Positions 3,455-46,106 of a stretch of DNA of 64,000 nucleotides are shown piece after piece. The translations under genes and the position numbers were made by a program. The DNA is from Nitrospirota bacterium (GTDB lineage Bacteria > Nitrospirota > Thermodesulfovibrionia > Thermodesulfovibrionales > UBA9159), in the NCBI GenBank assembly GCA_021790195.1, contig JAJYIF010000014.1, positions 1 to 64,000 of the forward strand, written 5' to 3'. Each line of letters starts with the position of its first letter. Position 1 is the stretch's first letter. Under the pieces are notes generated by a model, which saw only the letters and a program-made list of their open reading frames with translations, did no database searches and was not told the origin of the DNA.

Positions 3455-4486
3455 ATGATCAAAATAATTTCTGCGAGAGATCGGGTGATGAAGCTCTTCG
3501 GGGGCGAGGAAATCGACAGGCCGCCGTGCTTCAGCGGAATGGGAAACGTGACTGCGGAGGGACTAAAGGAGCTGGGCTACAAGTTCGCCTCGATCCATCT
3601 CGACGCCAGGAAGATGGCCGACTCCTCGGCAACTACTTACAAACTCTTCGGCTTCGAGTGCGGGGTGGTGCCCTTTGATCTCTGCGTCGAGGCGGAGGCC
3701 CTCGGGTGCGAGATAAATGTATATGCCCACCTGGAAGACATCCTCTACCCCACCATAAAAAAGAAGATCATTCACACCGAGGACGAGATGGATATCGCCA
3801 TACCTTCCGGTCTTCAGCACAGGGGAAGGATACCCCTGGTTTGCGAGGCCATCAGGCTCCTGAAGAAAGATATAGGGGGCGAGGTCCCGGTAGGCACATA
3901 TGTGCTCGGGCCCTTTACCCTCGCGGGGCAGATCATGGAGCTCAACGACCTTTTGAAGCTCTCGTTCAAGAAACCCGACAAGGTAGGCAGGCTGCTCGAT
4001 GCGCTTGCAGACGCCGTTATTCTGGTTGCCGGGGAATATGAGAAGGCAGGTGTGGATTATATAACGGTGAGAGAAATGGGCGCTACCTCGGACGTTCTCA
4101 GTCCGAGGGTCTTCAAGGGCCTGATACTGCCATACCTTAAGAAGATCTTTGAGAAGATCAGCGTTCCGAGCGTGCTTCATATCTGCGGCAAGACTAATGA
4201 TATCGTTCCTTTCATGGCGGAGAGCGGGGCGCGGGCGATAAGCGTAGACCAGAAGAACGACGTCGCCGAGTCGCGCAAGAAACTCGGGAAAGAGGCGCGG
4301 ATCTTCGGCAATTACGATCCCTATAACGTACTGGTCGCGGGCAGGCCCGAGCTCGTGCGGGAGACTGTCAGAAAATGTGTCAATGACGGGGTGAGCGCGG
4401 TATGGCCGGGCTGCGACATCTGGCCCACTGTCCCCCCTGAAAATTTCAAGGCCATGATGGAAGAAATCAGAAAGGACGGGAGGTGA
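3455..4486 (+). CDS. UroD/MtaA-family corrinoid methyltransferase (B)
   Basis: A second member of the MtaA/UroD superfamily, 343 residues, clearly diverged from the copy at 711-1751. The zinc ligands are again visible as HICGKTND and PGCDIWP. Other family features are GTYVLGPFTLAG and a C-terminal NYDPYNVL, which corresponds to the NIAPVHVL segment of copy A. The start has AAGGAGG 5 nt upstream. The corrinoid-protein gene begins 3 nt after the stop, a spacing that usually marks a cognate pair, so this copy is the better candidate for the enzyme that acts directly on that corrinoid protein. The substrate, possibly a methoxylated aromatic by analogy with MtvB/MtoB, is not determined by the sequence. 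Confidence 0.85.
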   Translation: MIKIISARDRVMKLFGGEEIDRPPCFSGMGNVTAEGLKELGYKFASIHLDARKMADSSATTYKLFGFECGVVPFDLCVEAEALGCEINVYAHLEDILYPTIKKKIIHTEDEMDIAIPSGLQHRGRIPLVCEAIRLLKKDIGGEVPVGTYVLGPFTLAGQIMELNDLLKLSFKKPDKVGRLLDALADAVILVAGEYEKAGVDYITVREMGATSDVLSPRVFKGLILPYLKKIFEKISVPSVLHICGKTNDIVPFMAESGARAISVDQKNDVAESRKKLGKEARIFGNYDPYNVLVAGRPELVRETVRKCVNDGVSAVWPGCDIWPTVPPENFKAMMEEIRKDGR

Positions 4487-4489
4487 GTT

Positions 4490-5182
4490 ATGGTGACCGA
4501 GGATAAGAAGAAGGAGCTCCTGGAAAGACTCAAGAACGCTGTAATACAGTACGACGAAGACACCGCAAAGGAAGCGGCCAAAGAGGTCCTCGATGTCGGC
4601 ATGAACGCCAACGACGCGATATTCAACGGCCTTGTGAGCGGCATGGAAGAGGTCGGTAGGCTGTTTGAGGCCCAGGAATATTTCGTGCCCGAGCTTTTGA
4701 TGTGCGCCGACGCCCTTTATGCCGGGCTGGACATATTGAAACCTCACGTGCAGCAGCTCGACCTCGGGGTCAAGGGTTCGGTCGTCATCGGAACGGTCGA
4801 GGGCGATGTCCATGACATAGGCAAGAACATCGTGAAGATGATGTTTGATGTGGCTGGCTTTACGGTGTATGACCTCGGCAGGGACGTCCCGCTCGATAAA
4901 TTCGTCGAAGAGCAGCTGAAGACTGACTCGGACCTTGTGTGCCTCTCCGCAATGATGACTACTACGATGGTCGGCATGAAGAAGGTCATCGACGACCTCA
5001 GGGCCAAGAACCCTAACGTGAAGATAATGATCGGAGGGGCCCCTGTCTCCCAGGACATCGCGGAGAAATGGGGAGCGGACGGATACGCAAAGGACGCAAA
5101 TAACGCGCTTAAAGACGCGATCAACATGATCAGCTCTCTCAAGAAACTCAAGGAAGAGGCGGAGGCCAGGAAGTCCCGGTGA
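4490..5182 (+). CDS. Corrinoid (B12-binding) methyl-carrier protein
   Basis: A 230-residue MtaC/MtbC/MtvC-type corrinoid protein that carries the methyl group on cobalt. The N-terminal helical cap domain (about residues 5-90) is followed by a Rossmann-like B12 domain with the base-off/His-on motif EGDVHDIGKNI near residues 103-113, where His is the lower cobalt ligand. LSAMMTTTM and MIGGAPVSQ are the other standard B12-pocket strands. The C-terminus ends in a charged helix. The gene lies 3 nt after methyltransferase B and overlaps the next gene by 4 nt. The cobalt is easily over-oxidised, which explains the activator gene nearby. Confidence 0.95.
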   Translation: MVTEDKKKELLERLKNAVIQYDEDTAKEAAKEVLDVGMNANDAIFNGLVSGMEEVGRLFEAQEYFVPELLMCADALYAGLDILKPHVQQLDLGVKGSVVIGTVEGDVHDIGKNIVKMMFDVAGFTVYDLGRDVPLDKFVEEQLKTDSDLVCLSAMMTTTMVGMKKVIDDLRAKNPNVKIMIGGAPVSQDIAEKWGADGYAKDANNALKDAINMISSLKKLKEEAEARKSR

Positions 5183-35567: not shown

Positions 35568-35652
35568 TGGTGCAGGCACCGAGACTCGAACTCGGACGGG
35601 TTACCCCACCAGATCCTAAGTCTGGCGCGTATGCCAATTCCGCCATGCCTGC
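35568..35652 (-). tRNA. tRNA-Leu (anticodon UAG), island-borne
   Basis: An intact 85-nt class II tRNA with encoded CCA. The acceptor GCAGGCA pairs with TGCCTGC, the anticodon stem CCAGA / TCTGG closes the loop CTTAGGA (anticodon TAG), a variable arm with GTGGGG/ CCCGT follows, and the T arm has GTTCGAGTC. It lies inside the island, next to the 3' remnant of the split gene that reads the same codon. Confidence 0.95.
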
Positions 35653-36178: not shown

Positions 36179-36781
36179 CTATTTTCCGTGCAGAATATCC
36201 ATCCACCTGATTGCCTCAGTGTCACTGATCTTGCCCAAGTAGATCTGAGTCGTTTTCAGATCCTGATGTCTCAGGATAACCTTGGAGATGATCTCCAATG
36301 GAACCCCATTTCTGCTGGCATAGGTCGCTGAATGCCGGCGTAGATCATGCGGAGATATCTTTACATTCAGCTTCTGACCCAATCCGGTGACCAGGTTTCT
36401 CACTGCTGTGTAGCATAGTGGAAATACCCTGTCTTCAGACTGCATCTGTTTTGTCTGAATATACTCGGTCAGTCTGGCCGCAATGTGTCCAGGCATAAAG
36501 GCGACTTCGGCATCTCGTCCTGACTTGGGCTCTTGGATCACCAGCTTTCTGCCGGTAACGTCTGCTGCCCGTAGATTGAGAACCTCCCCGATTCTCAGTC
36601 CACAGCGCGCCTGAAGCTCCAGTATCAGCCGATCCCTGACACTTCGTGAGTTAAAGATTATTTCGTCAAGCCAGGCAAATATTGATGGGACAGGCGGCGT
36701 GAGCTTGGGTAATCTTGCTGGTACGCTAAGCACACCAGCCTTTATTGCAATAACGGGAAGCCCCACAGCAGTGCCTACCAT
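36179..36781 (-). pseudogene. Truncated tyrosine recombinase / integrase
   Basis: The catalytic domain is complete: Arg in CGLRIGEVLNL, Lys in KSGRDAEV, HxxR in SPHDLRRHSATY, His in LRHQDLKTT and the nucleophile Tyr in IYLGK. The N-terminal core-binding (SAM-like) domain is missing: only a hinge-like LPKLTPPVPS precedes the catalytic domain. The first 20 or so codons overlap an IPTL-CTERM relic on the other strand, so the true break is probably near 36720-36770. The product, if made, could not bind att sites normally. It is the likely remnant of the enzyme that mobilised the island. Confidence 0.82.
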
Positions 36782-36863
36782 GAACGAATGGGGGATGATG
36801 GTCTTCGTCCTCTTTGCCGGAATTGCCTCGATCTATTATCTGAAAAGACGGAAGGCAGTTTAA
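36771..36863 (+). pseudogene. IPTL-CTERM sorting-signal fragment
   Basis: The frame from 36771 reads VPTMNEWGMMVF, a hydrophobic stretch and YYLKRRKAV before a stop. This is the C-terminal sorting tail of IPTL-CTERM proteins and matches the tail of the intact gene at 44378-45490 (VPTMTEWGMIIF...YYLKRRK). The rest of the gene is lost at the junction with the recombinase. The open frame continues some way upstream, with a Gly-rich sequence that may belong to it. Confidence 0.75.
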
Positions 36864-37084: not shown

Positions 37085-37102
37085 GTTGAGTTACAGGAAG
37101 AA
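37085..37102 (-). repeat. Cassette-boundary repeat copy (minus sense)
   Basis: In the minus sense TTCTTCCTGTAACTCAAC, 16 nt after the stop of the zinc-ribbon gene. AGTT before the core and AACT after it can pair. Confidence 0.55.
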
Positions 37103-37117
37103 AAACTGATTCGGAAG

Positions 37118-37606
37118 TTAATAATTATCGATGCCACCATCTTGAAGCATATCTTTTAATATTGTTGTTGCTGTTTCGACATCCTTTCTTGCAACGTCTA
37201 TCTTTATTGTGCCAATCACTGGATTAAATTCTCCAAGCAAACCTGCGGCAAATAGGTTTTGAAGGTTTTCGCCTCTTGCATAATAGTGAATATGCTCGCG
37301 TTCAAATATTGACTTTATTACAGATAATTCACCAAGATTCGTCGTTTCATAAACTGTTACTATTTCGATAAATTCGGCAGGCTCGTCGGAAATCCCTTCT
37401 TCCGACTTTTCATTTTCTTCTTTTTGAAAAAAATCGAGGTCAACTAAACATTCTTCACAATAGCTTTCTTCAAATGAATACGTCTTCTTACATGAAGGGC
37501 ATCTCGGCGGCACTTCTTCATATTTTACAAGTGCTACTTTACAATCGCTGCAACGTCCTTCAGATTCAAAATATTCTGTTCTGCAACGTGGACAATATTT
37601 CAGCAT
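37118..37606 (-). CDS. Zinc-ribbon protein with DUF2007-like domain
   Basis: About 162 residues. Two zinc ribbons at the N-terminus are formed by CPRC/CSDC and CPSC/CEEC. An acidic linker follows, then a C-terminal domain (IVTVYETTNLGELSVIKSIF, LLGEFNPVIGTIKIDVARKD) that matches the DUF2007 'putative signal transducing protein' family. I start at ATG 37606 (MLKYCPRC); an upstream GTG at 37636 is possible. AT-rich codon use sets it apart from the flanks. It is bounded by two copies of the cassette repeat in the same orientation. Confidence 0.75.
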   Translation of the reverse strand: MLKYCPRCRTEYFESEGRCSDCKVALVKYEEVPPRCPSCKKTYSFEESYCEECLVDLDFFQKEENEKSEEGISDEPAEFIEIVTVYETTNLGELSVIKSIFEREHIHYYARGENLQNLFAAGLLGEFNPVIGTIKIDVARKDVETATTILKDMLQDGGIDNY

Positions 37607-37688
37607 CTTGTTTGGTCTTCTTTGTCTTCTTCGCACTCGATATTACTAAAAATACTCCTTACTCGAAATCAGTATAGCACAGGCGTGT

Positions 37689-37706
37689 TCTACAGGAAGA
37701 CATAGA
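37689..37706 (-). repeat. Cassette-boundary repeat copy (minus sense)
   Basis: In the minus sense TCTATGTCTTCCTGTAGA: a TCTA/TAGA stem around the core GTCTTCCTG. A TATACT -10-like box follows within about 20 nt and then the zinc-ribbon gene, so repeat, promoter and ORF come in order. Confidence 0.5.
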
Positions 37707-39929: not shown

Positions 39930-39947
39930 CGCTTCTTCCTGTATCCG
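39930..39947 (+). repeat. Cassette-boundary repeat copy
   Basis: GCTTCTTCCTGTATCCGA, with GGATA upstream pairing to TATCC and GAAGC to GCTTC, so the copy can form a hairpin of about 30 nt. A TATAAT with extended TG follows near 39965. Confidence 0.55.
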
Positions 39948-40007
39948 ACGCGTTTGAAGTCTGATATAATGGGTCAGAGTACAAACAGCAATGGAGAGGG
40001 GGAATAA

Positions 40008-40208
40008 GTGGAATTCATTTTGGCGCTTGTTGGGCTAGGTATAGCAATTTGGGCGATATCATCCTTGTTCTCACCGCCTAGAAAGCGTAAAGACTTTGCT
40101 CTGCATGATCGGGATGAAGCAACGAGCAGAGCATTAGGGGGAAGCGCACCACCTGATCTATCCGAGATAGAGCCTACCGTGAAAGAGCAAAAAAGGAAGA
40201 AGGCTTAG
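40008..40208 (+). CDS. Small membrane protein
   Basis: A 66-residue protein with one N-terminal membrane helix (FILALVGLGIAIWAISSLF) and a charged C-terminal part rich in Lys. GTG start after GGAGAGGGGG. No homology is recognised. It is unit 1 of the cassette-like series. Confidence 0.6.
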   Translation: MEFILALVGLGIAIWAISSLFSPPRKRKDFALHDRDEATSRALGGSAPPDLSEIEPTVKEQKRKKA

Positions 40209-40214
40209 GACGAC

Positions 40215-40233
40215 GTTCCTTCCTGAACTCAAC
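40215..40233 (+). repeat. Cassette-boundary repeat copy
   Basis: GTTCCTTCCTGAACTCAAC, 7 nt after a stop codon. CGTT just before the core and AACG just after can pair. Confidence 0.58.
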
Positions 40234-40235
40234 GC

Positions 40236-40264
40236 TTGACCGCGTAGCCTTCAAGGTGTATAGT
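40236..40264 (+). promoter_or_regulatory. Promoter of small membrane gene
   Basis: TTGACC and TATAGT with a 17-nt spacer, directly after the cassette repeat. The downstream gene starts at 40297 with GGGAGGGAGG before it. Confidence 0.7.
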
Positions 40265-40296
40265 TCAAACAATAATTTTGTCGTTGGGGAGGGAGG

Positions 40297-40563
40297 TTGG
40301 CAAGAATTCTGTCATTAATTGTCGCAGGTGGGTATTTGGTTGCTGCATATCTTTCTTCTGGTTCAGACGTTCTTTTTAAAATTACATTATTCCTATTTCT
40401 CGGTATTGCCTGTATTTGGTTTGGCGATCCACTGGGTAAGATCACAGGATTCATATGGATTGGGAATATCAATGTCAGCCAAGAAACACCGGGCAGCATC
40501 ATTAAAGTTCTTGGGTGGATTGTGCTTTTGTTGGTACCCGCCATCATCTTAGTGTATCAATGA
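40297..40563 (+). CDS. Small integral membrane protein
   Basis: An 88-residue protein with about three membrane helices: SLIVAGGYLVAAYLS, FKITLFLFLGIACIWFG and a C-terminal VLGWIVLLLVPAIILVY. The TTG start follows GGGAGGGAGG. No family is recognised. It is unit 2 of the cassette-like series. Confidence 0.65.
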   Translation: MARILSLIVAGGYLVAAYLSSGSDVLFKITLFLFLGIACIWFGDPLGKITGFIWIGNINVSQETPGSIIKVLGWIVLLLVPAIILVYQ

Positions 40564-40566
40564 GGC

Positions 40567-40581
40567 CTGCTTCCTGAACTC
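40567..40581 (+). repeat. Cassette-boundary repeat copy
   Basis: CTGCTTCCTGAACTC, 4 nt after a stop. TCAATG before and CATTGA after can pair. Confidence 0.55.
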
Positions 40582-40586
40582 TTGCA

Positions 40587-40615
40587 TTGACTTGTCAGAC
40601 CCGCCGCTGTATACT
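40587..40615 (+). promoter_or_regulatory. Promoter of lipoprotein gene
   Basis: TTGACT and TATACT with a 17-nt spacer, just after the repeat. This promoter shows that the next CDS starts at 40655 and not at the upstream in-frame codons. Confidence 0.72.
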
Positions 40616-40654
40616 TCAATCGGAGATTGTCATAATCCAAGGGGGAAATCTTTC

Positions 40655-41524
40655 GTGAAGCGCACTTCTTTATTGGGGAAGATTCATTTCTTGCTTTGGG
40701 TAATAATATTGCTTTCTTCCTGTGCACCCACTAACACGTATGTTTATACAGGGCCGTCTTTCGAACAACGTATTTCTGAAGTCAAAAAAATAGCGGTTAT
40801 TGATGATGCATGTATACTTATCCTACCTTTCGGTAAAGATGCGGATTATGTCTCTATAGCGGATACAGTGTCAACAGAATCCTTTATATTGGATAGCACC
40901 AGAACTTATTTGGAGCAGAAGGGATATCAGGTCAGTACGCTGCTCTCTCCGTTTGTGTGCGGATTTGTGACGCCTAATGAATCATTTAAGGCAGCTCAAC
41001 GAAGAGATGCAGAAAAATCAGACCGATTTGCGCCGCTTTATATTTCCGATTCCGTATATAACAATAAGGAGTATAAACAGGCCTTGCTTAAGGTAATTAG
41101 GCAGATACGCCCGATATTTGGTCAGTTAATGCAAAAAGACATGACTGCGCAGACAACAGTGCTGCCGAAAATCAGTTTTGTGAAAAGACAAGTTATTTTT
41201 GACGAGGAGATGCTGAAGAGTTTCAAAGTTATTTCTGCTGCAACCAATTCCGAAATAGCCCTTTTTATAATAGGACATGGTGGGATTGTCTCCACTGGCA
41301 AGACAGTAGCCGTTGGACTTGCTTCAACAATTCTTTCTTTTGGAATGCTTTCTGTATGGCCAGTATCTGCCCTTGACACATGGGCTATGCTTGTTGATTT
41401 GAAAGACGGTGAAATCCTCTGGTCAAACTGTTTAAGGGTACAGATGAATCCCTCAAACCGTGATGCTTATGCGAAAGTGTGGCCATCGAGTATTTTGTAT
41501 CATCTTCCATCCAGAAGTAATTGA
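40655..41524 (+). CDS. Island lipoprotein of unknown function
   Basis: About 289 residues. The signal peptide FLLWVIILLSSCAPTN ends in a lipobox. The mature part includes IAVIDDACILILPFG, a possible strand-rich beta fold, and near the C-terminus a Gly-rich hydrophobic segment (TVAVGLASTILSFGML) before LDTWAMLVDLKDGEILW. The end is like that of lipoproteins that report a stored parameter, but I know no family. GTG start after AAGGGGG. It is unit 3 of the cassette-like series. Confidence 0.65.
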   Translation: MKRTSLLGKIHFLLWVIILLSSCAPTNTYVYTGPSFEQRISEVKKIAVIDDACILILPFGKDADYVSIADTVSTESFILDSTRTYLEQKGYQVSTLLSPFVCGFVTPNESFKAAQRRDAEKSDRFAPLYISDSVYNNKEYKQALLKVIRQIRPIFGQLMQKDMTAQTTVLPKISFVKRQVIFDEEMLKSFKVISAATNSEIALFIIGHGGIVSTGKTVAVGLASTILSFGMLSVWPVSALDTWAMLVDLKDGEILWSNCLRVQMNPSNRDAYAKVWPSSILYHLPSRSN

Positions 41525-41541
41525 CTTGATTCCTATATCAG

Positions 41542-41560
41542 CCTTCTTCCTGAAAGCGAC
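41542..41560 (+). repeat. Cassette-boundary repeat copy
   Basis: CCTTCTTCCTGAAAGCGAC, 17 nt after a stop; TCAG before and CTGA can pair. A TATAAT lies at 41576-41581. Confidence 0.5.
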
Positions 41561-41611
41561 TCTATTACTTCGCGATATAATTGTGATGCGTATGGCGGGT
41601 AATTAACAGTC

Positions 41612-41755
41612 ATGAAGAAAGCAAAAGAGACAAAACGAGGGGGTCATTTTGAAAGGGAAGCGAAGGTCATGTGGTTAATCTGGATTCTCCCGATTCTCTT
41701 GGGATTCTTCGCTACGCTCGTCGCCCCCTTCATATTCAATATATTCAAGAAATGA
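41612..41755 (+). CDS. Tiny membrane protein (47 residues)
   Basis: Starts MKKAKETKRGGHFEREAK and continues with one membrane helix (VMWLIWILPILLGFFATLV) before APFIFNIFKK. It lies between a TATAAT box at 41576-41581 and a cassette repeat 5 nt after its stop, which is the same layout as the units upstream. There is no strong ribosome binding site. It is too short for most gene finders. Confidence 0.55.
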   Translation: MKKAKETKRGGHFEREAKVMWLIWILPILLGFFATLVAPFIFNIFKK

Positions 41756-41760
41756 GTTAT

Positions 41761-41779
41761 AGCTTCTTCCTGTAACTGA
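41761..41779 (+). repeat. Cassette-boundary repeat copy
   Basis: AGCTTCTTCCTGTAACTGA, 5 nt after a stop; AGTTA before and TAACT after form a perfect 5-bp stem. Confidence 0.58.
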
Positions 41780-44122: not shown

Positions 44123-44137
44123 TTCTTCCTGAAGTCG
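44123..44137 (+). repeat. Cassette-boundary repeat copy
   Basis: TTCTTCCTGAAGTCG, with GTTTC before and GAAAC after as possible arms. It is not at the 3' end of an obvious gene. Confidence 0.4.
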
Positions 44138-44377: not shown

Positions 44378-45490
44378 ATGAAGCTTAAAATCTTAGTCTT
44401 AGCATTCCTTTTGTTAATTGTTTTGTCATATCCTGTCTATGCGCAGACATGGACAAACGTCTCCCCTTCATGGGATCCTACTAACGGTTACGTTTATAGC
44501 ATGGCGGTTTACGGGGGCAACCTCTATGTGGGAACGTATAACGGAGGGCCAGCGCAGGTGTGGCAGTATAACGGGACAACATGGTCAAACGTCTCCCCTT
44601 CATGGGCTGCTGCTAACGCTGGCGTTTATAGCATGGCGGTTTACGGTGGCAACCTCTATGTCGGAACGTATAACACCGGAGGGGCGGCGCAGGTGTGGCA
44701 GTATGACGGGACAACATGGTCAAACGTCTCCACTTCATGGGCTGCTACTAACAATGCCGCTGAAAGCATGGCGGTTTACGGTGGCAACCTCTATGTCGGA
44801 ACGTATAACGGCGGAGCGGCGGCGCAGGTGTGGCAGTATGACGGGACAACATGGTCAAACGTCTCCCCTTCATGGGCTGCTGCTAACACAGATGCTTTAA
44901 GCATGGCGGATTACGGGGGCAATCTTTATGTCGGAACGATTAACACCGGAGGAGCGCAGGTGTGGCAGTATGACGGGACGATATGGTCAAACGTCTCCCC
45001 TTCATGGGCTGCTGCTAACGATTACGCTAGTAGCATGACGGTTTACGGAAGCAACCTTTATGTCGGAACGGATAACGGCGGAGGAGCGCAGGTGTGGCAG
45101 TATGACGGGACAACATGGTCAAACGTCTCCCCTCCATTGGCTGCTCCTTACTATGCCGCTTATAGTATGGCGGTTTACGGTGGCAATCTTTACGCGGGAA
45201 TATATAACGGCGGAGGAGCGGCGCAGGTATGGCAGTATAACGGGACGACATGGACAAACGTCTCCCCTTCATGGACTGCTGATAACTTTGCCGTTTATAG
45301 CATGGCGGCTTACGGGAGCAATCTTTATGTCGGAACGAGTAACAGCGGCTTCGCGGCGGCGGAGGTGTGGCAGTTGTATGTTGGTGTAAGTGTCCCTACC
45401 ATGACTGAATGGGGGATGATAATTTTCATGATCTTGGCAGGCCTTGGGTCGGTATACTATCTCAAGAGACGGAAACAATTGGAAAGCTAA
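44378..45490 (+). CDS. IPTL-CTERM surface protein with seven propeller repeats
   Basis: A 370-residue exported protein. After the signal peptide (MKLKILVLAFLLLIVLS) come seven repeats of about 44 residues, each of the type TWSNVSPSWAAAN, SMAVYGGNLYVGTYN, AQVWQYDGT. Seven such units predict a seven-bladed beta-propeller. The C-terminus is an IPTL-CTERM sorting signal (VPTMTEWGMIIFMIL, then a hydrophobic stretch and YYLKRRK), which in other bacteria is processed by a dedicated exosortase-like enzyme (XrtH); none is in this window. GGAGGAGGG precedes the ATG. The repeats are nearly identical at DNA level. Confidence 0.88.
   Translation: MKLKILVLAFLLLIVLSYPVYAQTWTNVSPSWDPTNGYVYSMAVYGGNLYVGTYNGGPAQVWQYNGTTWSNVSPSWAAANAGVYSMAVYGGNLYVGTYNTGGAAQVWQYDGTTWSNVSTSWAATNNAAESMAVYGGNLYVGTYNGGAAAQVWQYDGTTWSNVSPSWAAANTDALSMADYGGNLYVGTINTGGAQVWQYDGTIWSNVSPSWAAANDYASSMTVYGSNLYVGTDNGGGAQVWQYDGTTWSNVSPPLAAPYYAAYSMAVYGGNLYAGIYNGGGAAQVWQYNGTTWTNVSPSWTADNFAVYSMAAYGSNLYVGTSNSGFAAAEVWQLYVGVSVPTMTEWGMIIFMILAGLGSVYYLKRRKQLES
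44429..45372 (+). repeat. Tandem coding repeats of about 130 bp
   Basis: Seven units share long identical DNA blocks such as TGGTCAAACGTCTCCCCTTC and GTGTGGCAGTATGACGGGAC. Such identity suggests recent duplication or homogenisation. Confidence 0.85.
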
Positions 45491-45603: not shown

Positions 45604-46067
45604 AGTTGTCGGTGGAGCCCGGAGCGTGAGGCTTCCTTATTCACATATCTGCTCCGGTGAATGCTTCTGGACAAAACTTTCTTTTCCGAAGAAGAGGTTC
45701 TTTGACGTTTAATGTCCGGAGAAACCAACACCGCCGACCATCGCGCTGAAAGCTCGTGCCGATTATTGGCATGGATCTTCATTTCTGCGGAGGCAAGCGT
45801 GTTACGGGACAAAGTCTGCGTCAGTTGCGGAACCGGCTACCTATTTGTTCTCAGGTGCTAGAGACTTTTACGGACAGAGGCTTGACTTTGGATTTCTGTA
45901 AGGTAGATTACTTTCTAAACAGTAGCAAAATTGTAGCAGAAAATATCCGAATGCACAGAAATTAGGAAAAATATGTAAATTTTGCAACTAAACTTTTCTC
46001 TGACGTTTCAATCAGTTAGGCTCGAATCCAGACCAGAAGCCCGTTTGCGAAAATGGCTCCGGAGCGG

Positions 46068-46106
46068 TCCTAAGTCCAGCGCGTCTGCCAGTTCCGCCAC
46101 TCTCGC
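46068..46106 (-). pseudogene. tRNA-Leu(UAG) 5' fragment
   Basis: In the minus sense GCGAGAG TG GCGG AACTGGCAGA CGC and the anticodon stem and loop start CTGGA CTTAGGA are intact. The sequence then departs (CCGCT, not the TCCAG needed to close the stem). The fragment is 39 nt and includes the UAG anticodon. Its acceptor strand matches the 3' fragment at 35410-35437. Confidence 0.85.

Follow-up and report, generated by a model that had tools for sequence, protein, structure and literature searches.

A promoter-bearing 60-bp element and its small genes in Nitrospirota look like an undescribed integron-like cassette system

The described systems nearest to the locus presented here are integrons and dif modules. 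Integron cassettes are mostly promoterless and carry their attC site 3' of the gene (PMC6557892, PMC11014356), whilst the dif (pdif) modules of Acinetobacter plasmids are described as lying between Xer sites and being moved by the host XerC and XerD (PMC6449649, PMC13141974). Halovirus HF2 carries 58-bp intergenic repeats that hold promoters (PMC8707807). These are like the element described below in being intergenic, promoter-bearing and of near-equal length; they differ in belonging to a viral genome and in being described with a promoter role only, and not one in cassette exchange with a recombinase. We found no description of the element itself in the open-access papers searched.

The DNA analysed (the window) is a stretch of 64,000 nucleotides from Nitrospirota bacterium GCA_021790195.1 (contig JAJYIF010000014.1, positions 1-64,000; order Thermodesulfovibrionales, UBA9159). 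The initial annotation had described a series of five sites in it, each a short core followed by a promoter, one small ORF and then the next core. This series is real and its cores lie where they were placed, with CTTCCTGWA at 39935, 40219, 40570, 41546 and 41766; this is also the minimal form to which the proposed core has to be cut back, since the 40570 site reads TGCTTCCTG. A promoter sequence follows the first four cores, whilst the fifth is a core without a recognisable promoter: TATAAT stands exactly 23 nt past CTTCCTG at the 39935 and 41546 sites, and the 40219 and 40570 sites have TTGACC-17-TATAGT and TTGACT-17-TATACT, respectively. Likewise, one ORF follows each of the first four cores (66, 88, 289 and 47 codons, ending 10, 6, 21 and 10 nt before the next core), although 289 codons is not small and the fifth core has no recognisable ORF. 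That each unit carries its own promoter holds, the promoter lying within the 5' element. The array sits in a GC-poor island (0.43-0.48 in most 2-kb steps versus ~0.53), the features of which are as follows.

35568..35652, minus strand: tRNA-Leu; left edge of the low-GC island holding the array.
36182..36670, minus strand: truncated tyrosine recombinase that covers residues 117-279 of a 279-aa family (318 bits, 89% identity; Pfam Phage_integrase).
37092..37102, minus strand: core TTCTTCCTGTA behind the stop of the 172-codon unit (core match).
37118..37636, minus strand: 172-codon zinc-ribbon/DUF2007 protein of the opposite-strand unit; the next core is 17 nt past its stop.
37676..37699, minus strand: opposite-strand core and partial element ahead of the 172-codon ORF (weak match, E 0.12 to 0.48).
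39933..39990, plus strand: element 1, of type B (nhmmer 44 bits, E 8e-12); CTTCCTGTA, 23 nt, extended -10 TGATATAAT, and AGTACAA as its conserved right end.
40008..40208, plus strand: cassette ORF 1, 66 codons, small membrane protein; homologous core-to-stop unit in another genus (G005).
40217..40276, plus strand: element 2, of type A; CTTCCTGAA, TTGACC-17-TATAGT, with TATAGTTCAA as its right end.
40297..40563, plus strand: cassette ORF 2, 88 codons, membrane protein without Pfam or NCBIfam match.
40568..40627, plus strand: element 3, type A; CTTCCTGAA, TTGACT-17-TATACT (profile match).
40655..41524, plus strand: cassette ORF 3, 289 codons, lipoprotein-like, without Pfam or NCBIfam match.
41544..41603, plus strand: element 4, type B; CTTCCTGAA, 23 nt, TATAAT (27.8 bits, E 1.1e-6).
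41612..41755, plus strand: cassette ORF 4, 47 codons, membrane protein (from the ORF list).
41764..41774, plus strand: fifth core TTCTTCCTGTA at the array end; the rest of the element is not recognised by the profiles and no ORF lies directly behind.
44123..44133, plus strand: isolated core TTCTTCCTGAA, in the gap preceding a beta-propeller protein with an IPTL-CTERM-like tail.
46060..46105, minus strand: by eye, sequence like the 5' half of tRNA-Leu; right edge of the island.

The weaker opposite-strand unit, in which the 172-codon ORF stands between two cores, belongs to the same island. So does the repeat beta-propeller protein with the IPTL-CTERM-like tail (44378-45490; weak Pfam matches), and an orphan tail fragment of the IPTL-CTERM-like kind is found at 36699-36863 (weak Pfam match). 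Compared with plasmids, the array DNA gave no match.

The core is the left end of an element of ~60 bp that carries a promoter sequence, predicted to be active. Two types can be told apart: type B has an extended -10, TGnTATAAT, 23 nt past the core, and type A has TTGAC-17-TATAnT. The conserved positions are a T at -2, CTTCCTG[AT]A, a C at 14, TGATATAAT at 27-35, TTGTGC and AGTACAA, to ~57; both ends are equally spaced in the two types, though the -10 of type A sits ten bases later. A gapped pattern search finds the exact spacings again elsewhere in the genome of the window, 23 nt at C15, C20 and C36 and 33 nt at C15 and C34, in addition to two occurrences of each in the window. Element 2 scores 59.9 bits (E 5.5e-16) with profile R2, of which it is a training member, and is 83% identical over 53 nt to the C15 copy of the same genome (BLAST, E 1.6e-7). 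In related genomes the profiles detect copies with E down to 1e-15, often as neighbouring copies; on reversed sequence they gave 0 matches in 1.2 Mb. The copies are diverged, with a mean column identity of 70%, and there is little conservation in the sequence on the left side of the core, so that an ordinary two-armed tyrosine-recombinase site is not visible. No Rfam family covers the elements. By eye, the right half of the element resembles a dif site.

We gathered ~130 element copies from draft assemblies, one per species and with arrays at contig ends, and almost all come from one order of Nitrospirota. The element is present in 54 of the 176 genomes of this order and, outside it, in 3 of 295 genomes sampled across the phylum. 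A scan of 84,980 species genomes yielded 11 stretches, all labelled Nitrospirota bar one contig of a Bathyarchaeota MAG; this contig (L123, MEZD01000006.1, in a Candidatus Bathyarchaeota bin) holds three copies, and may be Nitrospirota DNA put in the wrong bin or else DNA transferred to an archaeon. Among viral contigs, neither the element pattern nor the 279-aa recombinase was found. The element usually stands ahead of one small, unrelated ORF, sometimes in arrays, which occur in many genomes. The ORFs behind it, mostly small and unrelated to each other, encode membrane proteins, lipoproteins, acetyltransferase-like proteins and others, where names beyond Pfam are ones that we read from the sequences ourselves. 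In G005, an array flanked by two seemingly core genes holds a homologue of the 66-codon ORF of the window, followed by a different unit. In one family (L262, L264, L287 and L186) a hairpin, GTCGGATTAGCGAAGCGTAATCCGACA, comes right after the element in place of an ORF, and the element extends ~60 nt further left. Elsewhere (L104, L123, L168 and L255), a conserved left flank beginning ACGGGGCGAAAGAAACACCCCAATCCAG lies ~90 nt upstream of the core; it has no Rfam match and is possibly another platform or an RNA. In two genomes a dus gene looked like a carrier of the element; this was rejected, as in G003 the element heads another ORF.

How the units are shared between genomes bears directly on whether they move. 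The window unit at 39932-40207 and its counterpart in G005 (L100:5725-6001) are 71% identical in DNA from the core to the stop codon, with unrelated flanks. A 497-codon unit common to G002 and to G170 and G171, in two families, is 83-87% identical, and its homology runs from core +4 to directly behind the stop. In G095 and G138 a shared block of 856 nt, 90% identical, ends in CTTCCT with unrelated sequences beyond; for G036 and G166 it is the left flank that is shared (85.6% identical), stopping at the core. Within one genus, G084 and G041 differ by a single core-to-core piece of ~94 nt, absent from G084. When blocks shared between different genera were considered, with alignments of the recombinase gene excluded, 6 of 28 block ends fell at -15 to +10 of the core, versus 0.43 by permutation with jittered element positions (p<=0.0005); the unfiltered test, dominated by recombinase-gene alignments, gave p=0.011. 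The unit of G146 and G118, 93% identical, loses its homology at ~+45, within the element and not at the core. For the low-identity pairs, constraint on promoter and ORF alone could give the same ends of homology. Separately, we considered the element as the crossover site of tRNA islands and rejected this for G039, in which the insert has tRNA-Ser end repeats on both sides and of which G090 shows the empty site. A mini-island of 1.73 kb at the 3' end of tRNA-Ser, with the direct repeat TGGCGGAGGGGGTGAGATT at both ends (L114 2937-4682 versus L213 (end)), has an antitoxin-like zinc-finger gene and no integrase; a genome of the same genus has the site empty.

The 279-aa tyrosine recombinase family is represented in the window by the truncated gene 3.3 kb from the array, in which the N-terminal domain is gone and the catalytic residues are kept: R142, K165, H224/R227, H251 and Y260 are invariant in 13 aligned sequences, this copy included. 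The family is found in 21 of the 176 genomes of the order, and the element is present in 17 of these 21 versus 37 of the 155 others (Fisher p=5.5e-7). Six recombinase copies lie within ~4.1 kb of an element, where ~0.4 would be expected by chance (a hand estimate). At three loci (G174, G142 and G125) a divergent element or core stands ~140-170 bp upstream of the recombinase. For G142 and G125, the recombinase together with its left flank is 79-80% identical until shortly after the core, from where the sequences are unrelated. On the G174 contig, two units upstream of an intact recombinase point away from it, the first core ~142 bp from the recombinase start and the second overlapping the stop of the first unit's ORF; the other side of the recombinase has a UPF0158 gene and another three cores, with ORFs. 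A UPF0158 family gene adjoins the recombinase in three genomes, in differing orientations (L107 2122-2592, L275 5132-5455 and L318 3214-3687).

At most recombinase copies besides these three loci a divergent platform core was not seen, and most full-length copies have no confident element nearby. Many element-rich genomes, near-complete ones such as G003, G005, G036 and G087 among them, are without the family, and five genomes of the phylum outside the order carry it, none of which gave an element match. Among the gene families recurring near the first ~60 element loci there was no recombinase, which emerged only with more loci added. Recombinase and element could be found together in part because islands are where both reside, and thus most weight rests on the divergent platform loci and on the block ends. 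The best relatives of the family are archaeal XerA and XerD recombinases (NCBIfam XerA_Arch, 116 bits), and the nearest solved structures are XerA-like (PDB 4a8e, 5hxy). It has in common with tyrosine recombinases the full catalytic set of R, K, HxxR, H and Y; it differs from XerA and XerD in scoring far below their cut-offs (220 and 329.6 bits), and in that some copies are linked to cassette arrays.

The cassette idea of the initial annotation is thus largely supported and stands up to the checks proposed with it: in relatives, the core with its flanking element was found at gene boundaries, units recur with different neighbours in blocks that end at the core, and the linked recombinase that it suggested looking for exists. 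The same cannot be said of the folded site it envisaged, with a constant loop and varied arms. The individual stems it named are within chance expectation; over 93-100 copies, the longest stem between the left flank and the right of the core averages 4.05 bp versus 3.80 bp with re-dealt flanks (z ~3), with no strong fixed register, and 41 copies show no covariation.

Integrons remain the closest comparison. Shared with them are arrays in which single genes, small and unknown, all have one orientation, a platform site from which a tyrosine recombinase diverges, variable units on one side of a short core, and orphan clusters without an intact recombinase. Indeed, the platform arrangement, in which the site stands beside and divergent from the integrase at a boundary of fixed and variable DNA, is found at G174, G142 and G125. 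However, the linked recombinase is not of the IntI type, reaching 49.5 bits with the IntI model TIGR02249 where the cut-off is 265, and for the element an attC-type site, with paired R and L boxes and a single-strand fold, is not supported. Whereas integron cassettes are mostly promoterless with attC at the 3' side, here the promoter is inside the site, which is 5' of the ORF. It is thus very improbable that the arrays are an ordinary integron or an integrase-less attC cluster (CALIN), for all their array logic and small unknown ORFs. The genome of the window does have a true integron on another contig (L136, G000:C5:1-16000, 3826-5121; IntI 396 bits), the upstream array of which resembles classical attC cassettes, and an element-headed ORF in G097 is 53% like a cassette ORF of that integron; yet no element lies near it, 0 of 14 regions around IntI genes hold one, and IntI and element show no association (p=0.71). 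On these last two counts IntI was rejected as the enzyme. With dif modules the resemblance is that of gene modules between short recombination sites, shuffled among replicons by tyrosine recombinases; the difference is that here the repeats are of ~60 bp and all gene-directed, with the promoter inside, and that the candidate enzyme is a separate family.

Other readings dispense with cassettes altogether. The elements could be regulon promoters, the binding sites of a lineage-specific regulator (CTTCCTGWA upstream and a second, conserved box near the start site) ahead of accessory genes that were otherwise acquired, with no recombination. They are consistently promoter-like, with fixed spacings, 23 or 33 nt, that are one helical turn apart; ORFs 45 or more codons long, preceded by an SD and starting 50-150 nt past the core on the same strand, are found behind 32 of 90 cores versus 11 of 90 in the mirror control; and in G039 the island of 1.73 kb that has the element 107 bp from its edge used as insertion site the tRNA-Ser end and not the element. 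Against this stand the equidistant ends of types A and B despite the 10-nt shift of the -10, the high-identity blocks that break at the core in both directions, and a recombinase that co-occurs with the element and adjoins a divergent copy, and we regard the regulon as unlikely, though still to be reckoned with. Were the element a dispersed mobile promoter or a MITE-like repeat, able to insert alone upstream of genes, this would account for many copies per genome ahead of unrelated genes, but such a repeat should leave recent, near-identical insertions, whereas the copies here are diverged within and between genomes, and the shared blocks hold element and gene, not the element alone; this we consider improbable. 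Finally, a coincidence of ordinary promoters with a pyrimidine-rich heptamer can scarcely be credited. The 11-mer alone is found at merely ~2x control in the genome of the window (29 versus 15; 5 of the 29 matches fall within the 10-kb island of the window), but the strength of the profile matches in relatives, the empty reversed-sequence null and the near-confinement to one order speak against chance, and the first two of these refute it.

The reading we prefer, and judge probable, is that the units are mobile gene cassettes exchanged at the core, for which the likeliest enzyme is the 279-aa tyrosine recombinase; both the site-specific recombination and this choice of enzyme we infer from the block ends and the divergent platform loci. 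A cassette would begin with the core CTTCCTG, continue through the 60-bp element with its promoter and through a single ORF, and end shortly after the stop, where it would abut the next core. Units would be gained, lost and exchanged through core-by-core site-specific recombination, by a recombinase residing beside the arrays with a divergent platform core; what lies left of the core would stay with the upstream unit or platform, and what lies right of it would travel with the downstream gene. Compared with attC the site would be mirrored: it would stand 5' of the gene, move with it and have a promoter built in, and because of this position and promoter a captured gene would be expressed wherever it landed. 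As the genome of the window has only the truncated recombinase left, and no intact member of the family, its array has probably become a relic, or else is served in trans in the manner of integrase-less attC clusters. More tentatively, and with somewhat less belief than doubt, we posit a dedicated gene-capture system with an enzyme and a site unrelated to those of integrons, a platform core, and a 5' site that doubles as a promoter.

Integron cassettes usually rely on an external promoter, and the expression of cassettes deep in an array is a standing question. If the cassette reading is true, captured genes would be expressed regardless of their position in the array, and a second cassette system, with a 5' recombination site and a built-in promoter, would represent an independent solution to gene capture. 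The candidate pair of enzyme and site is directly testable, and the system would explain many of the orphan small genes in the islands of Nitrospirota.
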